Of a stretch of DNA of 64,000 bases, positions 44,520 through 56,297 are shown one piece after another. The stretch lies in the NCBI GenBank assembly GCA_034670405.1, contig JAXDDX010000337.1, positions 1 through 64,000 of the forward strand, given 5' to 3'. How positions within the stretch are numbered: the first letter of the stretch is position 1; each line of letters opens with the position of its first letter. The position numbers and the translations under genes were made by a program. The stretch is from Hoplostethus atlanticus. Taxonomy: Eukaryota; Chordata; Actinopteri; Trachichthyiformes; Trachichthyidae. Below the pieces are notes generated by a model. It was given only the letters and a program-made list of their open reading frames with translations. It was not told where the DNA came from and searched no databases.

Positions 44520-45060
44520 CTTCTTATCGTATGCCGTTTCTCTGGTTGTCCCTTAGGCTGTGGCAGGAGGCCAGTATGCAGCAATTTGTTTTTTCACTCA
44601 AAAGGTATTTGAGTTTGTCCCTTTCTGATTGTTTCAAATTTTTTATATTTGTTTTGAATTTTGAGGAATAATAATGCTCCAGTTTCTGAATATATGTCGC
44701 AGTGTAGCAGACAATGTAGCTCTGTCTCCACTTCCCCCTGTATGCAGAGTGAGCACAGCCTGTCCACCCAGTCTCCGGGCTGTACCTAGTCAATATTCTT
44801 CTCAATTTATGATCAGTCACGGTGGTGAGATATTCTGCCATTGTGTACTGTTGGTTTAGAGCTGAATAACAATCCATTTTGCTTTTGTAGTGTCTTTCCA
44901 ATAAGTGATATATTTCTTTTTTTCATTTTGTCATAATTTGGTTGGCCAGATTGTCTGTGGGCTGACCCGAGATTCTGTTGGGTTGGTACCAGTAGAGGTT
45001 AGGGAACTGAGCCTCAGGACCAGCTGGCTGAAGGGACTCTTCGCCAGGTTCATCTCTTGC
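44520..45060 (-). mobile_element. L1-like LINE ORF2 C-terminal relic
   Basis: The frame 44901-44524 reads YKSKMDCYSALNQQYTMAEY, LTTVTDHKLRRILTRY, then YRGKWRQSYIVCYTATYIQK. This resembles the region after the reverse transcriptase in L1-like LINEs of fish. The sequence to its right (45000-45060) may belong to the same element. I cannot place the clade with confidence. Confidence 0.45.
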
Positions 45061-45968
45061 AGGGCCGGCCCTGGTCAAATTGGCGCCCTACACTGAAAAA
45101 AATGATATGTTGAATTTACTTAATTTTATTTAGGTAAGTGGTTGCACAAAATAAATTCATCTAAATCTAGATATATTTTTTAAATTGAGTGTACTTATTT
45201 TTTAGTAATTTCAGATGAATTATATTTATATTATAATTTTCGCTCAACTATTATGAGTAGACTATACTCTAATTTCCTAAGAAATTCCAACTAAACCCAT
45301 GTTCATTATACTAAAATTAATTATGTAACCTTTAAACCTTTTTTATTTGTACATTCAGATCAATTTAATTGTTTAATTAATTATTATTAATATAATTAAT
45401 AAATTCAATATTCAGACAAATATTTTCTTTAATTCTTTATTTTCTTTACTTACTTTATTATGCCACTTATTAGTAACCCTTAGCTTATTTATACAAAAGC
45501 TTCCTTAAAATAAAAAACATCAATTGGAGAAAAATAAAATCTGATGCTCAGCTTCTACTAAGCAAATATTAACACAAAATACTCACTGAAAAAAGCTCAG
45601 TGGTAACACCTCCTTGAGTTGCTTGACATGTAACAAAATGTACCAGTACCATCCAGTTAAAAAAACAAAACAATGGAGTACCGTTACTACCCATACGGGA
45701 ATGTAATATATGTACATATAGTAAATTTCCATATATGAAATATATGTACATATGAAGGAAAAACATGTATGTATGTACAAACTATATATGAAACCTATTA
45801 GAAATTGGAACAATTTCATATATGACATATATGTCTAGCCTATACAAATATATATGTATAATGCATTTTGTGACATATGTCACGTATATAATTATTTATA
45901 CATATAACATATACTGTATGTATACAAATATATGCATAGCATATTATGTACATATATGTCTAGCCCAT

Positions 45969-46177
45969 AGAAATGTACAGTAAATGGACTGCATTTATAT
46001 AGCGCTTTACAGTATATGCTCTCATTCACCCATTCACACTCACGGCAGTGAGCTACCATGCAAGGTGCTGGTCTGACCATCGGGACATGTGGACTGGAAG
46101 AGCCGGGGATCGAACCTACGATCTTCGAACCTACGATTGGCCGACCCGCTCTACCGCCTGAGCCACAGCCACCCCAT
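45969..46177 (-). mobile_element. tRNA-derived SINE, internally shortened
   Basis: Read in reverse: GTGGCTGTGGCTCAGGCGGT then AGAGCGGGTCGG (A-box region), GGTTCGATCCCCGGCTCTTC (B box, preceded by a duplicated GAAGATCGTAGGTTCGA segment), TCCAGTCCACATGTC, and a tail of AAAGCGCTATATAAATGCAG and TCCATTTACTG. It is the same family as the 317-bp copy at 52654-52970 but lacks about 100 internal bases. Confidence 0.88.
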
Positions 46178-46191
46178 ATAACTAGAGAGTC

Positions 46192-46235
46192 CTCCCCGTC
46201 GGGGAATTGAACCCCGGTCTCTGTACTAACGAGGA
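46192..46235 (-). pseudogene. tRNA-Asp remnant lacking the anticodon arm
   Basis: Read in reverse it begins TCCTCGTTAGTA, the 5' end of eukaryotic tRNA-Asp, and continues with AGACCGGGGTTCAATTCCCC then GACGGGGAG, its T arm and acceptor. The D stem, anticodon arm and variable region between them are gone (44 bases against 72). The T loop has A for G in GTTCGATTC. The acceptor stem can still pair. It is a broken host tRNA copy or the head of a SINE-like retroposon. No SINE tail adjoins it. Confidence 0.75.
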
Positions 46236-46744
46236 GAGGGATATGTTTATGTTATATATGTTGTTTTAATAAACATAAATATATAAATTAAACATATATT
46301 GTTAACATATATGGTTGCAACATATACCATATACAAATTCATACAATACAAATTTTTAATATATGTACATATACAAATTTTACTATGGATATTTGTTAAA
46401 AACCTATATCGTCATACATCCAGAGGATGTATGTGGTAATAATAAATCGCCTTATATGTAACATATATGGCAATATCGCTCGCTGATATAGGGGCATATA
46501 TGTCATATATTACATTTCCGTATGGGTAATATAAAACACTATAACTGGAAGACAGCGAACACTGAGGACCTGATGCTGCAAACACTTTCATTGAGTGAAT
46601 GCAATACTCAATTTCAAACAAGCACCTATGGCCAGGAATGCAATATTCCTATCAAGTGAATATTCCACATAGTAAATGTTCTCCATCACCCCCAAACCAG
46701 AACAATGCAGATTAACAGGGTTCCCAGGAGCAGCTGAAGAAATC

Positions 46745-49700
46745 TTACAGTCCAGCACTGATTTTGTTCTTTAGTCCAAGAACTTTGGGGGAAAGCCTTC
46801 CACCATCCATTTGCAGGAGCACTTTCTGAATGAATTCATAGTAGTAGCTCAGCTCTTTGGGGTAAGCCATGTTCAGTTCATAGATGACTCCCAGCATCAT
46901 TGCACAAGCTTGGGCTACAGATCCAATGTTGTCCAGAATGATTACTCCTTCAACATAAATTCCAATGTCATCATAATGTCCAGTTTCTTCACACTCCTTG
47001 TTGATGACATATATGCCCATGGTGGATTTCTGCAGGTCTCTCAGGATGTCACCTCCTTTGATGTCCTGTGTATTTAAAGAAAATAGGGGAAAAAACAAAA
47101 CATGTATTTATGCAATATATTTCATTTTAAATAACATATACTTTACTGTATGAAATTTTTTTTTTAATTTTGCTCACATACCTATCAATCACTAAAGATA
47201 AGTCTGGTCATATTGTATATTTTTCTGAATTAAACTATATATTTGTGATGTGTTTTTTAAAGATTTACGTCTTCAGTAAGAATCAATGAGCTTGGGGCTG
47301 AGTGCCAGAAATCAGAAAGGATTGAGAGATGGACTAACAGATTATTGGTTTTGGTCTTTTCATTGGACAACAAAAAAAATAATGAATAAAGCCAGCCTTA
47401 TCGTTTAAAGAACCAAATTTATGGTTTTAAATGTTTTAGCATATTAATGAGAATCACCATACAAAGCCAACAACCATGTTGTTTTACTGTTCTGGATTTC
47501 ATTTCCTCACCACAAAGCTTGACAAAGCCATGAATGTTCTCAACCTTATGGCTCCTTATAAGGTAAAAATACATTTTCTAAAATTGATCAGCAGTAATGT
47601 TATTGCATTTGTCATCAATGGGCTAAAACATAAAAAAAAGAATGATCCTTTCATACTGTGCATTAGCACAGTAGTGATGTGACAGATTTAAGTTTTAAGT
47701 TATTTGTTTGGGTTTGTTTCCGTTTTTGGCGAGTGTCCCTCTAAATCCCGTTTGTGAAAGCCATTTTCTCTACCTTGTAATCACTAGTGGGCGAGTGACA
47801 GTAGAATCTTAAAATATTTTCTAAAATAAAAGACAGTGCATGTGACTGGCAAATGCAATTACAATGACTTACCATATACTCCCGAATGAGATGTCCATCA
47901 TCCTCACCAAAATAGATGCAAAGTGCCTTGAGGACTGCTGCCCTTTTAAGGTTGACATCAGTAATCAATAATTAAAATGATTAAAATATTCCTAAATACA
48001 TCATAATTACAAAAAAATTCAAGAAATTATAGAATATTTCCAACCTGTGGTAACCTAAAAAAAAAAATACAAAGTATACAATGACTTCATTACACATACG
48101 GTAAATTGACTGCCCTCTTTAAATACAGAATGTTAGTAAATTGTGATTAATTTTGTGTAGGGGGATAGCACTATTTCAACTTCTACTTATTCAGGGAAGT
48201 TTCACTGAGCAATGCTCTCTTCTTCACAGTTCACACCTGGAACAACCTAGTACAACCTAGTGCTAGTACAACCACAGTCTGATCAGCTGGCCACTGAGGA
48301 TTAAGTGCCTTGCTCAAGGCAGGTGCTGCTCTTTCCCCACCTGGGGATTGAATTGGCACCTTTCCAGTCACAAGCCTGCTTCTCTAACCTGTATGCCACT
48401 ATTGCCTCATTAAGACATCATCCAATTTCCTTATAAATCTATCTTGCACCTTGCAAATAACCCAGGCTGTTCTTGAGGTAAAAATGGGTCTCTATATGGT
48501 ACTAGACAGGTACATTTCATAAAGTTGCTCCACAGTATATATGACAATTACAATATGACAATACAAGTGTAAACACATATTTACCTCTTCCAAGATCGCA
48601 CGATGTTTGGCTAGTTTCTGGCCAGAAACACCTCCCTTCTTCTGGAAAACAGATGTCAGCTGTAGGCTGTATGGCTATTTAAACCTTGCTAATATTTACA
48701 ATAAGTTTACAATGGGTCAAATGTCTAGATGTAATGTGAAAACCCCAATTCCAGCAGCAGGAGTTTTCATCAGACAAGCTGACGAAAGCAGAACATCGAG
48801 TGCCTAAAGAGCCAGATATTTTTCTCAGAAGTTGAGACCAAAAACAGAGCTAAAAGGAGAGTGAATATTGGACTTACATTCATCAGGTTGACAACAAACA
48901 CCACTCTAAATGAATGCTAATGCTGCTCTGTATCAGCTAGAAGGGTACATTAAATACGCAAACGGCTGCTAACGCATTCACCATCAACTTCTTCTGCTCT
49001 CAAGTGGCCAAAATTATTTCAAATTCATTGTCACCTTATCACTATTTCGGTTTCAGTAGTTACACACCAAGATTGTATGAGAAGAGCCACACTGCGAAAA
49101 AAGCAAGTATGTGCTTACCTGATCAATATGGAAAAGTGCAGGCCACCTGGCTTTAAACTCTCCGGCAGTTGGATTTCCCTGCACCACCTCTTTTCATCTG
49201 TAGGAGAATGTTTTTGACATCTTCTCTCTCACACACAGTGCACTGTTTCTTTGTCTGACATCATTCAACAGTTCAAGTCTCACATTTTCTAGGCTTTCAT
49301 CTGTTTCGCCAGCAGGGTTTGAAGGACAATAGTTGACTTCAGCCTTTTTAGGTTTCTTTACATTTTTGGCTGGGAGGCAGTCATCACTAGATTTGTTTTT
49401 CAAAGAATTTACAGTCACTTCTGGGCAGCCAATGTTTCTCATTTTTGTCCTGTAATTAGCCATTTTATATTTTAGGCTAATCATCCAGCCATAGTAACCA
49501 GTGGCAGATGGTTCTTTCAAACAGGGAAATTTTCTGATGAGTGCCCCTGCTACCTCATCTATTTGGTAATTTTGTGGATATGCCGTATACTGGAAGATGT
49601 CCTTGGCTAGCTTCTCCAAGATGTCAGACTTCAGCCCTGGAGTAACCTTCAGTGGAGTGCCCGTTTCTCTGAAGCTCTCATTTCCACGTTGAAGCTGCAC

Positions 49701-50159
49701 TTCAACATTGTATGGAAAGCGAGGAATAGGGAATTCACGTGGCCATGCACATGCTCTCAGTTCGGTGTCTGAATGTGACAGAATGATGGTGTTATCCGAG
49801 TCTGTTGAGGACAATGAGGACACACTGGGAGATGTTGGGCTGCTTACTCGTGCTCCAGATGACCAGGAAGTGCTGAGAGCATTCTGCATTGAAGAAGATG
49901 GACTCACACCCACATTATTTAACATGTACACCAACTTGACTGTACTTTTGTCCTGTAGATCTTATACTGATGTAACGTTCATGAATTCATTATTGAAGTC
50001 AGGATCCCTGAACTGAATACGAAAGTCTCTTTCAACTCCAAATGCTTGGCGAATTGTATTGTGTAACTCTGTCAAAGTTTCTGGCATTCCTGAATGGAGA
50101 TCAAGTCTTCTATAGTCATCGTCGTCCACAATGACTCTCAACTTCAGATGCTGTGACAT
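46745..50159 (-). pseudogene. SAMD3-like accessory gene of the CACTG element
   Basis: Resembles the multi-copy fish proteins labelled 'sterile alpha motif domain-containing protein 3-like'. The first large exon (50159-49119) has a PB1-like start, LKLRVIVDDDDYRRLDLHSG, a Ser-rich linker, then WPREFPIPRFPYNVEVQLQR, YQIDEVAGALIRKFPCLKEP and YGWMISLKYKMANYRTKM. It ends at donor CAG/GTAAGC. Further exons are 48642-48585 (KKGGVSGQKLAKHRAILEE, after TTTTCCAG), about 47967-47877 (RAAVLKALCIYFGEDDGHLI, donor GTAAGT) and about 47071-46745 (DDIGIYVEGVIILDNIG, YPKELSYYYEFIQKVLLQMD). In-frame stops occur at 49962-49964 and 49194-49196, the latter TGA at an expected CGA. No SAM domain is seen. Function unknown. 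By position it may assist transposition. Confidence 0.75.
48180..48420 (-). mobile_element. tRNA-derived SINE inside a SAMD3-like intron
   Basis: Read in reverse: GCATACAGGTTAGAGAAGCA, GGCTTGTGACTGGAAAGGTG, a decayed B-box region, CTTGAGCAAGGCACTTAATC, and a CTAGTACAACCTAG-rich end. It is the same broad family as the piece at 6742-6905. It lies between the third and second recognised exons. Confidence 0.65.
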
Positions 50160-50692
50160 TCTTCAATCTAATTGTTAAAGGAGACAAAATTAAATGTTGT
50201 TAAATCCATATTTGGTACTGTTGTTACTTAACTTTTTATTATAAACAGAGTTAGAGCAGGAACATACTGCCACACAATTTTAATCTGCAGTTAAAACTGC
50301 AGTTCAAATTAATTAATTTTACCATTACTTTCTTCGTGTGGAATGACCAAAAACACAGAAATTTGTTTTTTTTGTAGTTTGTGTGGTAGTTCTTCCTTTG
50401 AGCATGATACATTTTAAGTGACAGCTTTGAACATTAATTTGCATTATGTTAGCCACAAATGTTTTCCTTTACATGCACATTTCTATAATAAATGGCAACA
50501 TGAGGGTAATTTAGCACAGGGAAATGTCAGAGGACTGGATACCGTCCCTCAGAAAATTCTCAAAGATTATTTTTTCTATCTTTACTAAAAACTAAATTAG
50601 TCCTCCTGCAAGAAATGTTAGGCAGCCCTCTTGTTACCATATTTAGTGTATCAACTCATGCAACACATGAACACAACATAAATTATGATTAC

Positions 50693-53633
50693 CTAACCTT
50701 GTATGTGTATGAATCTTTTAAGTGTCACCATTCGCCGGCCTCCAATCCTGTAATCTGCCAAGGGGTACTGGTCTACCAAGGCACCGAGTTGAATGAGGGA
50801 GATTTGTGATGTGGGACATAACTCAAATGCCCTAAAATGCTCCCTATACCAAGCACCCAACTCTTTAACAATAAAGCTCAAGCTCTTCTCCACAACAACC
50901 ATCTGGATAACCTCTCCAAACTCTGGCAAGCCACCAACAGAGCCATGAACAACAACCATACCTTCCTTGTAGTTCACTCCATTAACAGACGCATTCTTTG
51001 TGAGCTGAATGTGAGTAACATCAGGGTATTTCAGCTGCAGAACCTTCTGTACATCCTGATGCAAAATGTCAACAGAGACAGTTGAGACAGCTGAGACAGT
51101 CAAGCTAGACCTTTCGGTTGTGGTTGACTCCAAGTGATATGCCATCATGAACTGATGCTTCACCGCCAGGGACAAGAGTATGTTTTTGTAGCAGCGTGTG
51201 TGTGACAACCTGCTTAAAAAACTGTGTTTTGCCTCAAACCTCATTGTCCACATCCCAACTAGTGGACCAAAAAATCTGATCATCTGTGGATAATGTTCCA
51301 CAAAATGATGTTTCGGCAACAGCTTTATACCCGGAAACACCTCTTGAAACCTACATCTATGGTCACAAATCTTGGCTTCAAGGAAAGCAATGGATTGTGT
51401 CGTGTGCACTGGTGCAACAACTACTTCGACAATATCTTTAAGGTCCAAAATGACCTGCCAGGCTGGCTCATCTGGAGGCACCAACTGTCCAACCAAAAAT
51501 GGAAGCAATCGCAAAAGACTCCAATTTTCGTGAGCATTTCCTCCAATACTTTTCTTCAGCATGAATGTCCTGGGAATAGCATGAGGACGGTTACTCTTGT
51601 CTGTCCATTTGTAAGGAAATTTCTGAATGGACTCATTGAGATTGTCAAGTGTGAAATATTTTTTTGAAATTAACAAGTTGAGGCAGTGTGCCAACTCAAC
51701 TGCCTTCAAAGATGTCATGTGCAACATCTGGAGGGTAGCCAGTGCAGACATTGAAATGAGAAAGATGTGCAGAGAAGACACACTTCCTTTTAACACCGTA
51801 ACAAGGTCGTGCATTTTCCTGTGCTGACCTGACATGCATTTCATGCACATCTTTGCTTCGGAGAGTAAACGCACCTGACTTCCTTCTCCTGAATTTCAGA
51901 CTTGTGTGCCACACAAAACCGACAAATGTATTCACCTGCAAAACTCTCAATGAATCCAGCAATTCCATGTGCTCCTAAATTGTCTGCTATGACACACTGT
52001 ATTGTGCCCTTAACAAAATCCCCAAGCTGTGCAATAAAAATACCTTGACTTTCCAAAATGACAAGATCCCTCAACAAGGGCTCTAGGACCCTTTCATAGC
52101 CATATTTCCTCACATCTTCAGACCTGCAGAGTAAGGCCAAATAAATAGAAGACAATGAAGAATGGCAACCTGGTGGTAAATTGCTGAGATGCCAATAAAC
52201 GGAGATGTGCCAAGCGGATTACAAATCTCAAAATCATCAACATACAAATTCAGTAACACTCGCAACTCACCTCCTGACAAAAAATGGTTATCCTTGAAAA
52301 ACAAACCGTCTCGAAAAGACTTGTATATCACTTCTTCTCTACCCTCTGAGATGAGATGACTATCTAACGCTTTGTTAAGAATGTGGCCATCAGTGAAAAG
52401 CTGCTGCAAAAACTTTAGTAGTGGAACATACTGCAGGGTTCTTTTATCTTTGTCATCCAAGATATATTCTATGGGTTCCACAACTTTAAAATTGTCTTTG
52501 TAGTATTTTTTGCGCTTAAAGGATTTTGCCAAAGGACAACCTTTACCAATTGATTTATACACAGGATTAGACGTACACAGAACAGATGCAAGTTCTTCAA
52601 TGACTGACTGGTCAACTTGCAGGTTGTAACTATTCAGTGTGTCATGTATCACATTGGGCGGCTGTGGCTCAGGCGGTAGAGCGGGTCGTCCGCTAATCAG
52701 AAGATCGGCGGTTCGATCCCAGGCTCCTCCAGTCCACATGTCAAAGTGTCCTTGGGCAACACACTGAACCCCAAATTGCTCCCGAAGCTGCGCCTTCGGT
52801 GTGTGAATGTGTATGAATTGTTAGATTCCCTTGATGTGCAGGTTGGCACCTTACATGGTAGCGTCCTGCCATCAGTGTGTGAATGGGGTGAATGTGAATG
52901 TAGTGTAAAGCGCTTTGAGTGGTCGGAAAAGACTAGAAAAGCGCTATATAAGTACAGTCCATTTACCATTTGTACTACACAAAGATGCTGTGCTCAACAA
53001 ATACTGAAATTCTTCCAGAAATTCATCAACTGCAGCACTTGGCACATGAACAATGTTTTCCAGCTTTAATAACACTGCCGCAATTTTTTGTTGTATTATC
53101 TCTGGCTGATCCTTTGACGTATCTAAATCAACATCATCAGACTGACTTTCATCGCAGAATTCATTGTTTGAAACACCAGGCTCTCCAGTTTCAGCTACAC
53201 AAGTTGCTTGTACTACACCATCCTTAAAATCTACAAACGACTGTAAGCTGTGCTTCTGAGTTTTGTGCGACTTGAAGGTGCTGTATACATTGGATTTGTA
53301 TTCACAGCCTTTAAACATACAAGTGACTGTCTCATTGTTCTTCAAATGATGGCTTATGTGCACAAAATAATCACGTTCGGTTCCAAGTTCTCTATAGCCA
53401 CATAAATGACAGGAAAATGTAGTAAATATGTAAGAGTGCTTCAAGGTATTGGTGTGATTCCTCGACAAGTGTGCCAAAAGTAAATTCCAAGTCTTAAAAA
53501 TGCATGGACAATCAGGATATATACACTTAATATGATGGCCACGCCCAAAATGACTATGATTTAGTCTGTAATGTTTAAGAAGTTCTGATCACCTAGACAC
53601 TTCAGCGCCACAGTCTTTACACTGCCACATAAA
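50693..53633 (-). pseudogene. Zinc-finger tnp2-like transposase of the CACTG element
   Basis: Reading leftward, it starts after a good acceptor (TTCTTTGTCCAG/TTTATG). Four C2H2-like fingers come first: CKDCG..., then IYPDCPCIFKTWNLLLAHLS, FSCHLCGYRELGTERDYFVH and CMFKGCEYKSNVYSTFKSHK. After an acidic linker the catalytic region has VIADNLGAHGIAGFIESF, CRFCVAHK, GYPPDVAHDIFEG, KSIGGNAHENWSLLRLLPFL, LPKHHFVEHYPQMIRFFGPL and MWTMRFEAKHSFLSRLSHTR, the order found in tnp2/CACTA transposases. I propose the D of ADNLGAHG, a D of PDVAHD and the E of RFEAKHS as catalytic candidates (inference). Breaks: TGA at 53589-53591 replacing a likely Arg, a SINE at 52654-52970, and frame changes near 52150, 51890 and 51705. 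Confidence 0.8.
52654..52970 (+). mobile_element. tRNA-derived SINE inserted in the transposase
   Basis: A full-length copy: head GGGCGGCTGTGGCTCAGGCG (A box), GCGGTTCGATCCC (B box), body TCCTCCAGTCCACATGTCAA, ACACTGAACCCCAAATTGCT, and 3' end AAAGCGCTTTGAGTGGTCGG then AAAGCGCTATATAAG and CAGTCCATTTACCATT. The flanks TGTATCACA (52645-52653) and TGTACTACA (52971-52979) match at 7 of 9, a plausible target duplication. Removing it restores neighbouring coding blocks of the transposase. Not a functional tRNA gene. Confidence 0.92.
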
Positions 53634-53639
53634 CTGGAC

Positions 53640-54924
53640 AAAGAACAAAGAGAGAAAAGGGGGGGAAAAATTTAACATTAGTGATTGTGTTTTTACAGTC
53701 ACCTCAGGAGCATGGTGATCTGCATCAACTTTGATTACATAAAGCCATGCACTGTAAAGCAAACAAAATCTGTGTTTAATGCAACTTGTAGTTTGGGCCA
53801 GGGAATCTCATATTAAGCAAAGTAAACAGGATGAAAAGCCCAATAGTTTGCTCAAAGATGAAGAGTAAGGCTGTCTACACAGGATCAGTGGCAGATTAAT
53901 TTGCGCTGCTGTTAGCCATTAAGAGAGACCAAAGACACAGAACCAAACCTAGCAAGAAGCTAAAACATGAAGAAAGTGTCTATGTGTACCAGTACTTTTT
54001 TCAGCATGAATAAAGCAGCTCTTCTCTATGAATTATTTGACGGCGATGTACCAGCGTTGAGCTCCTCCTTATTCCATATTTATTTTTCTTTTGGCCTTTT
54101 TTAGTATCATCACTTGCCAATAACAATGGGGAGCCCCCAATAAAGAAAGAAACAGTTACAGAACATTTATCCTTAGCGGTACTGCTGTGATCAGTATCGC
54201 TGTGAAGAGTTTGTTTGTTAAATGCACTTACCAAAACAATGTGAGGTCCCCAAACAGTTAGGTTCTCTTCCACATCACAGCAACATCAGATAGATCAGAA
54301 GTGAGAAAAACCTGCAATAAAAAGGAGCAGGAATTAAAAAGATAAATTATAAGCTTGTTGAGGAAAAAAAAAAAGGTAATTGTTTAATAATTACTAACTT
54401 GTGTCAGCACAGAACATGCTAAGCTCATGACTCAAAGGAGGTAAGGAGGTAAACAACATTAACCTGCTAGCTAAACCAATATTATCTTATCCCTGTTGTC
54501 TTCTGCCTACCACTTCAGAACCTTAACCTAGGTGTTTTCACTGGACTCAGTGGGCTGTGGTCCTGAACCCACTCTGCTTGTCCTCCTCTCTGTTGTCTGC
54601 AGAGCTGCTGTTGCTGAATGCAAAATTAGTTATTATGCATTTGCACGCTTCTATTTTTCGGGATTGCAACTTATTTTCTCTGTGCTTTTCAGCCCCACCT
54701 TTACGTTTTTAGCTTATTCGTGTAAAGCCAGACAGAAACAGTCCACTACTAGCTGCTACCACTAAGTGAAAAGAAGACACGGTAAAGGGTTGGGCGGAGC
54801 TGCGGGACTCCCGCTCCTGACGAACACAGACTATAGACTTGAGGTCCTTTCAGAAAGCAAGTTGCTGCTGCTGTCTGCTACTCGGCGCTGTTGTGTTTTG
54901 AATGAAGCAGTAATTTAGGCTATG
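53640..54924. other. 5' leader region of the CACTG element
   Basis: No ORF with a domain. One segment looks like a leader exon on the minus strand: acceptor TTTTATTGCAG near 54313 and donor TTTTG/GTAAGTGC near 54229. A T-rich and A-rich tract follows near 54365. Confidence 0.4.
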
Positions 54925-55223
54925 TCCATATTAAGCCCAGTACATTTGAAAACGCATACTCATCTCTCCGTTTTGCCCTCCCGTCCACAGCCGGCGGTTT
55001 TACCCAAAACGGAGCTTTTCGAAAATGCTCTCCCAAGTGGATACATTTGAAAACGCCGGCTAACGTTCCCCGTTCTAGGGTGGATGGCGAAAACGGAGAC
55101 TTTTGAAAACGATAACGTTTCATTGCTTTGATCCAGGCGTGAGGGAGCCCTCGGCTCTGCCATGGTTTTTGAAAACGCTAGACCCGAAAACGCCAGTTTC
55201 AAATGTACCCGGCTTAATGTGGA
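54925..55223. mobile_element. Short palindrome-ended MITE
   Basis: The ends TCCATATTAAGCCCAGTACA and, inverted, TCCACATTAAGCCGGGTACA flank 299 bases rich in TTTGAAAACG and GAAAACGGAG words. No coding potential. Inserted in the leader region of the CACTG element. Confidence 0.75.
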
Positions 55224-55339
55224 GGAAGCCTTGGGCGGCAGCTTGCTGCTGCAAGAGAGCACCTTTTACTAACGTGATTTCACATATTTAGTTTTGTCCT
55301 AATGTTACCACACTGACGGTGAGGATTAGAAGACATACT

Positions 55340-55830
55340 TACAGCCAGTCGGGAGTTTAGTAGGCATGGGAAGACTGCCCTGAGACAGCGGGGAAGGTGA
55401 AGCTGCAAGCCATTAAATAACGTTAGTCAATTAACACTGGTAGACTTGTGACAATGGCCACAAACTAATAAAAAAAAAGTCTAACAAGGCAAACATTGAA
55501 TTCATCACACATTTAACTTGAGAGCAACATCAAGTTAGCTTTTAATGTTAACAATACTAATTAACGTTAACTTACACAACTAAGCTAGCTGCTGTAACAT
55601 TAACTAATGTTAATCTATCAAAATACAAACTGATAGTGAACTACACTTTTTTTTAAGTGTAAACAGAACACTGTTTAGGCAAAAATACAATACACCCATG
55701 GTTATAAATTAGTTTACTTACTGTAATAGGAGAGCCTTGGAAATGCAGCATGTGAGGAGATACTAACTCAAATCCGAAAGAGTGGAAAAGAAATCCCCGC
55801 CCCCAGAACGTAAAATGGCGGCAAGTGTCT
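55340..55830 (-). promoter_or_regulatory. TATA-less promoter and leader exons of the CACTG element
   Basis: On the minus strand GCCGCCATTTTAC (about 55813-55825) matches a YY1-type start element, next to GGGGGCGGGG (about 55797-55806), a GC box. Downstream, CTATTACA/GTAAGTAA at 55722 is a strong donor. The next segment has acceptor CCGCTGTCTCAG and donor GGCT/GTAAGTATG (about 55343-55372) and contains an ATG. This suggests a spliced 5' leader for the transposase. All of it is inferred from motifs. Confidence 0.45.
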
Positions 55831-56297
55831 GCCCGTTGCCTTACGAAAGTCGGAACAAACTTTTAAATTAGGCCTTGTACATCTAATATGAGTGAAGATT
55901 CAGCAACTGGATAGCTTATTTCTCGCCTCAAATTTGTTCAGAAACAGATTTTGGTGCACTGCTAAGGTGAAATAAGTGAAAGTTTACGTACTTCATACAA
56001 CGGAACCCCACTACTCATGCTCAAACCCCATTGGCTCACAGAACTGGGGGTCAGGGGTCTTGAAGGGTTGTCCCATATGTGTAAATTTAGTTTTACATAT
56101 TTTTTTATAATTACTTTTAATTAAATGAAATTAACTTATTTTAAACTAGGGCAGTACATTTATGAATTAATAAAAAAAGAATTAATAACACATTAAAATC
56201 AGTTAAATAAACTGGATTAAAACATATAACATTTAAAAGGGGTCAGAATCAGTTTTTTCAGTGTAGGCGAGATTCCAGACTGCCCCCCCCCCCCCCA

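Follow-up and report, generated by a model that had tools for sequence, protein, structure and literature searches.

A 64,000-nt stretch of the genome of the fish Hoplostethus atlanticus (GenBank assembly GCA_034670405.1, contig JAXDDX010000337.1, positions 1 to 64,000; hereafter, "the window") contains, at 45091..56263, an 11,173-bp element with CACTG ends that encloses two genes, both read right to left: one for a transposase and one for a SAMD3-like protein. We interpret this element, with a probability of about 0.85, as a dead copy of a two-gene DNA transposon of the CACTA/EnSpm type (CMCT clade), in which the SAMD3-like gene is the standard second component. The anatomy of the unit is established, and its two genes recur together across the genome, have moved together as parts of single units, and have co-diverged. 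The window copy is dead because both of its genes carry stop codons, and because the transposase gene is also broken by frame changes and by an insert resembling a short interspersed nuclear element (SINE). An earlier note on this DNA, made from its letters alone, had proposed that SAMD3-like proteins are the second product of an animal EnSpm-like lineage. This proposal is supported by downstream adjacency at 27/48 transposase loci (among the matches listed), by three families that have both ends, and by co-divergence. The disruption of both window genes is a point absent from that note.

The boundaries of the element are set by its termini: CACTG starts at 45091, and the last base of CAGTG is 56263. 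The left terminal inverted repeat (45091..45106, plus strand) pairs with the right one (56248..56263, minus strand) at 15 of 16 bases, and this is the window's sole pair with such a match 1–20 kb apart and with equal flanking dinucleotides; dinucleotide-matched randomized windows yielded no comparable pair in 50 trials. A target-site duplication of TA lies on both sides (45089..45090 and 56264..56265). In the same genome, five other copies match the left terminus from within 3 bases of 45091; all five start at CACTG, and their flanks differ. The right terminus recurs in one other copy, on C14, among 40 loci compared. Since the C14 copy is flanked by TG/TG, the duplication is 2 bp long, yet not invariably TA. 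The CACTG ends, the TA duplication, and the same-strand pair of a transposase gene and a spliced SAMD3-like gene had all been described in the earlier note, and all were recovered. Its claim that the element sits within an older repeat stands only in part: the left flank (45001-45059) is indeed repeated at 14 further places in the genome, but the matches end 31 bases before the insertion point.

Joint mobility is evident from three diverged families, with two copies each, that hold both genes between CACTG ends. The flanking dinucleotides match in 6/6 copies with both ends, and the SAMD3-like gene is always part of the unit that moved. Family 1 consists of the window element (TA/TA) and C14:1245966-1253549 (TG/TG); the exact left terminus is present in four more copies. 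Family 2 consists of C306:146607-154858 and C20:4974065-4982053, with ends CACTGTAAACCC..GGGTTTTTACAGTG (one T shorter in C20) and TA/TA in both; the two copies are 99.1% identical over 6,646 bases and 95.7% identical over 1,405, and their flanks are unlike. The two copies share a frame change that separates the finger part of the transposase from its core; one or both were therefore probably mobilized in trans. Family 3 consists of C26:4662942-4672237 and C97:34821-44102, with ends CACTGTAAAAAATG..TTTTTTTTACAGTG, TA/TA in both, and 97.5% identity over 9,374 bases. In C26, an open transposase frame is followed by a frame that matches SAMD3-like proteins at a diverged level (29% identity, best E 8.4e-11). 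Transposases 30–31% identical to the query, mostly stop-free, occur at at least eight places (L043+L045, L044+L046, C854, C372, C120:742343, C199, C152, and C542), and this group seems to have been active recently. The N-terminal exon of its second gene is a different one, without a match to any Pfam family; a reading of the family 3 N-terminal exon as SAM-like, made by eye, was dropped because Pfam gave no match.

The pairing of the two genes extends well beyond these families. In the 633-Mb H. atlanticus genome, the best 50 of 513 transposase candidates were scored, as were the best 81 of 533 candidates from an independent SAMD3-like search with protein P0001; clustering of the two match lists gave 48 transposase loci and 71 SAMD3-like loci. 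Same-strand proximity within 15 kb, a check that the earlier note had suggested for fish genomes, was run in this genome and came out in favor of the pairing. At 27/48 transposase loci, the 15 kb that follow on the same strand contain a SAMD3-like locus; the other three arrangements occur at 1, 2, and 1 (all among the matches listed), with a chance expectation of ~0.0009 per locus. The usual spacing in paired loci is 200–800 bases. The 27 loci include the window itself and the C120/C786 pair, possibly a single copy. A survey of 1.5-kb flanks at 28 transposase loci, excluding the window's own, found same-strand SAMD3-like coding sequence in 20 downstream flanks (weakly at L017 and L035) and in no upstream flank, and opposite-strand sequence in no downstream flank and in 1 upstream flank (L025, additionally). 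The flanks without it are those of L018, L021, L028, L030, L033, L034, L036, and L038. L021 has just 57 bases of downstream flank, and a longer stretch, L039, reveals a SAMD3-like gene there; truncation affects L028 and L030, and L033 and L034 appear to be a single copy that entered the assembly twice. Viewed from the second gene, a listed transposase precedes at least 27/71 SAMD3-like loci; this is a minimum, as the transposase list holds the best 50 of 513. In the 3.5 kb before 10 of the 44 remaining SAMD3-like loci (the top-ranked ones, with C7, C295, C525, and C460 left out), same-strand transposase sequence is present at 7/10 and opposite-strand sequence at 0/10.

The two genes have also diverged in parallel. 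Across 20 units, the distances between transposases co-vary with those between their linked SAMD3-like partners (rho 0.633; 169 of 190 pairs usable; 0 of 2,000 permutations). When each family is represented by a single unit (14 units, 89 pairs; no transposase distance below 0.30), rho comes to 0.563 (0 of 5,000 permutations). The comparison of the two gene histories that the earlier note had called for agrees with its proposal: the genes co-diverge within one lineage. In addition, a fusion of the two genes in Collichthys falls near Misgurnus in both database trees, with 80.7% identity for the transposase part (218 residues) and 76.3% for the SAMD3-like part (520 residues).

The window transposase gene (50693..53630, minus strand) has one in-frame stop (53589-53591) and at least three frame changes, and is interrupted by a SINE-like insertion of ~315 bases (52656..52970) that appears as a gap between transposase matches; a similar copy lies near 46084-46126. 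Relatives have a single open frame (e.g., P0175, 902 residues). The N-terminal C2H2 zinc-finger region (53249..53630, minus strand) keeps four finger-like Cys/His groups in the alignment. All of the core motifs of the alignment are found in the window copy, on the minus strand: the first catalytic Asp in VDDFEICNPLG (52209..52241), the second in IADNLGAHG (51964..51990), the C(2)C motif CRFC (51913..51924), the H(3)H motif PKHHFVEH (51293..51316), and the catalytic Glu in RFEAKHSF (51218..51241). Among aligned relatives, D362, D454, C474, H684, H688, and E708 are present in 36/36, and C477, the second Cys of the C(2)C motif, in 35/36. The core has a RAG1/Transib-like fold. The tnp2 family (Transposase_21) matches 24/36 relatives at E≤0.1 (best 4.3e-5), with listed scores below the curated cut-off, and gave no match to the window pieces. 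When solved structures were searched by sequence with alignment A4, the matches listed were zinc-finger proteins. The C-terminal domain (50696..51100, minus strand) is BAH-like in the predicted structure of a relative, P0201.

The SAMD3-like gene (50159-46745, minus strand) begins ~500 bases past the transposase gene and has at least four recognizable exons. Exon 1 (49119..50159) encodes a PB1-like domain and a conserved middle region, contains stops at 49962-49964 and 49194-49196, and is followed by a GT donor after 49119. The next recognizable exon (48585..48659; ...LTSVFQKKGG...) has an AG acceptor and a GT donor; the exon that should precede it was not found in the window copy and is matched in the C14 copy, which still aligns to the ~25 residues missing here. 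An exon at 47873..47962 (...DVNLKR...) has a GT donor and no AG directly before it, and the last exon (46745..47065), with an AG acceptor, ends in the stop codon. Many members of the protein family have a PB1-like N-terminus, where the PB1 domain itself could be recognized, followed by the conserved middle and an alpha/beta C-terminus. Despite the name, no SAM domain is among the 14 families matched by 63 SAMD3-like members (E≤0.1), nor was one found in P0084, the named SAMD3 of Amia. That family list likewise contains no Myb/SANT match; a Myb match in P0018 is C-terminal and lies outside the SAMD3-like part proper. A PDB fold comparison of a SAMD3-like model gave PB1/ubiquitin-like structures among the matches listed, with residues 139–537 barely covered. 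By sequence, solved structures gave no match to the window SAMD3-like piece, and alignment A3 gave weak matches (best E 0.23).

Further repeats besides the SINE-like copy have probably inserted into the element. In its left part, 45684-46531 is an inverted-repeat element with arms ending in CCCATACGG-type ends, probably a nested miniature inverted-repeat transposable element. It contains, near 46000-46180, a SINE-like copy related to the insert in the transposase gene. In the 5′ part of the element, a stretch at ~54918-55225 with inverted ends ggctatgtccatattaag .. cttaatgtgga (read by eye) looks like another nested repeat. Elsewhere in the window, and unconnected with the element, are long inverted repeats at 22540-23133/37501-37910 (270 nt at 96% identity) and 9514-9753/13339-13578 (240 nt at 100% identity).

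For other fish, 255 distinct proteins were compared. Two of the 255, P0029 of Collichthys lucidus and P0195 of Mugilogobius chulae, combine the transposase with the SAMD3-like protein in a single gene model, in the order seen in the window. Near-identical SAMD3-like copies lie on contigs of different length in Gouania (three copies, 94.6–99.7%) and Sarotherodon (three copies, 98.0–99.0%), which lends indirect support to the earlier suggestion that transposon cargo accounts for many of the SAMD3-like genes annotated in fish. Several transposon proteins of this kind are filed under host names (P0028, P0065, P0070, P0179, and P0186; e.g., coatomer subunit delta, NF-kappa-B inhibitor-like protein 2, and Shikimate kinase). 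P0200, a transposase of this family in the bin of a bacterium, Candidatus Epulonipiscium fishelsonii, is taken for fish host DNA. Other SAMD3-like proteins carry extra parts: P0110, P0115, and P0120, which are 83–86% alike over 574 residues, have a common N-terminal extension, P0063 and P0083 (85% alike) share a second one with P0075 (~50% alike to them), and P0082 is joined to a lectin-like part. The P0063/P0083/P0075 extension resembles one that we take to be common in fish zinc-finger genes, and the extended proteins are possible fusions with host exons. No relatives were found in viral_contigs (with the window transposase piece, transposase alignment A1, and SAMD3-like alignment A3), in genome_contigs (with A1 and A3), or, by protein, in plasmids or phages (the SAMD3-like protein was not searched against phages); the joined-flank motif of the element is not in viral_contigs.

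Several observations weigh against our interpretation. The window copy and several other copies are broken. Among the matches listed, 21/48 transposase loci have no SAMD3-like locus downstream; closer inspection revealed a SAMD3-like stretch at 5 of these 21 (C91, C263, C74, C525, and C465), and a sixth, C26, has the diverged SAMD3-like gene of family 3, with C97 97.5% identical to it over the whole element. No downstream partner was seen at 14 transposase loci; the one among them that was closely inspected, C165, has a truncated transposase and no SAMD3-like sequence in its flank. Two of the seven upstream transposase matches span 22 residues, and at three of the 10 SAMD3-like loci checked (C8, C15, and C83) there is no transposase in the 3.5 kb upstream. 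Subterminal repeats in families 1 and 2 do not exceed those in shuffled sequences; in family 3, 7/9 CTGTAAA motifs lie within the terminal 600+600 bases, a suggestive pattern at most, in a motif picked after inspection. Lastly, no DNA-binding fold was found for the SAMD3-like protein in a structure comparison that effectively covered the PB1-like part alone. The loci at C8:2977472-2978473 and C83:2195183-2195905 (both stop-free in the match), and at C15:3090213-3091040, are candidates for orphan or domesticated copies.

The window ends might come from two separate elements, the genes between them being chance neighbors, and both a second CACTGAAAAAA 493 bases inside the left end and the flank repeat that stops short of the insertion would fit such an arrangement. 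We rejected this reading as vanishingly improbable: the C14 copy has both window-type ends around both genes and its own TG duplication, the window ends agree at 15/16 bases, and the same left base opens five further copies. Alternatively, the SAMD3-like gene could be a host gene that the transposon acquired as a passenger on one or a few occasions, in keeping with the gene models of other fish that fuse it to host-like parts (lectin-like in P0082; the common N-terminus in P0110/P0115/P0120). However, order, strand, and short spacing are constant at the 27/48 listed loci and in many families, a diverged SAMD3-like gene is kept in a family whose transposase is merely 31% identical, and the two genes co-diverge. 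Together, these three features indicate that the association is old and has been kept, and the passenger reading, which we consider highly unlikely, was rejected because of them.

A third alternative concerns the function of the SAMD3-like protein, which could serve the element in anti-silencing or regulation, like fungal TET/JBP dioxygenases, rather than as a subunit of transposition. PB1 domains mediate protein–protein contacts, the BAH-like domain predicted for the transposase would hint at chromatin contact, and no result here indicates that the SAMD3-like protein binds DNA. In fungi, transposons of this clade do carry such genes (PMC12730594). The fungal TET genes have crossed between unrelated superfamilies, according to the same source, whereas the fish pair co-diverges in one lineage; a regulatory role is still compatible with this, and we regard it as possible without favoring it.

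In the two-gene transposon that we prefer, gene 1 encodes a DDE transposase of ~900 residues with C2H2 fingers, an RNase H-like core of RAG1/Transib fold, and a putative BAH-like C-terminus, and gene 2, which follows on that strand after a few hundred bases, encodes the SAMD3-like protein. DDE/CACTA transposases excise and insert their elements by cut and paste. The element would be recognized at its CACTG ends, move in this way, and leave a 2-bp duplication. Gene 2 has been retained throughout the divergence of the lineage as a standard part, its product perhaps multimerizing via PB1 and joining the transposase at the ends. We lean toward a role for the SAMD3-like protein as a transposition helper; that it binds the ends as plant TnpA does is a more doubtful suggestion. 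Many fish genes listed in databases as "SAMD3-like" would then be the second gene of a large cut-and-paste group, and apparent host genes would often be transposon parts. Many fish gene models, whether called SAMD3-like or bearing the name of an unrelated host gene, would accordingly be transposon genes, to be masked before gene families are counted. Domestication becomes directly testable as well, by looking for constrained copies with host exons and without a transposase or ends. A broader and more speculative scenario, which we put forward tentatively, is an ancient, widespread vertebrate CACTA-like lineage in which a transposase with a RAG1 fold and a BAH-like end works with a PB1 partner as one machine; the fish SAMD3-like family, and possibly vertebrate SAMD3, would go back to that partner, and fusion to host exons would have domesticated it several times independently (e.g., P0110/P0115/P0120).

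The two-gene CACTA-type element is a kind already known. What the second gene is, how far it has spread in a vertebrate genome, and that the transposase has a BAH-like end all appear to be undescribed in searchable papers; a description that is unpublished or confined to a database may exist. Within the open-licence literature (Repbase was outside its scope), no paper joins SAMD3 to EnSpm transposons or to domesticated transposases, none joins the sterile alpha motif to EnSpm and a transposase in fish, and no CACTA transposase with a BAH domain is reported. SAMD3 itself is a vertebrate host gene. Many fish members bear the name "sterile alpha motif domain-containing protein 3-like" in databases, and no SAM domain was found in the scanned members.

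Among transposons that carry extra genes, fungal EnSpm, ESTA, and Plavaka elements have TET/JBP genes, and the TET genes have been transferred between unrelated transposon superfamilies (PMC12730594). The fish elements resemble these in combining a CMCT transposon with an extra protein gene; the extra gene is a different one, and the fish pair co-diverges rather than crossing superfamilies. Harbinger-type two-gene elements (Nuwa) encode a transposase and a Myb/SANT protein, according to the same source (PMC12730594). They are similar in having a standard second protein beside the transposase, and differ in both the transposase superfamily and the second protein. The TA duplications of the fish elements are reminiscent of ESTA, with the difference that TG also occurs, in the C14 copy.

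The closest comparison is with plant CACTA (En/Spm) elements, which are two-gene cut-and-paste transposons with a tnp2-type transposase (TnpD), a second protein (TnpA), and a 2- to 3-bp duplication; a 1991 paper, cited in PMC4158355, reportedly treats both En/Spm products. The fish elements have the CA..TG termini (CACTG..CAGTG) and the duplication, within a range of 2 to 5 bp, that mark the CMCT clade, and, as in En/Spm, a second protein gene inside the element beside a transposase of putative tnp2 type. They differ in the C2H2 fingers and putative BAH-like end of the transposase, and no clear subterminal repeats were found in the fish families. We know of no sequence relation between the SAMD3-like protein and TnpA. 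Plant CACTA elements are two-gene machines, and this animal CACTA lineage is likewise a two-gene system, with an unrelated-looking second protein. RAG itself has a partner protein, RAG2, and the fish elements offer a testable system for the putative helper of a RAG1-like transposase.

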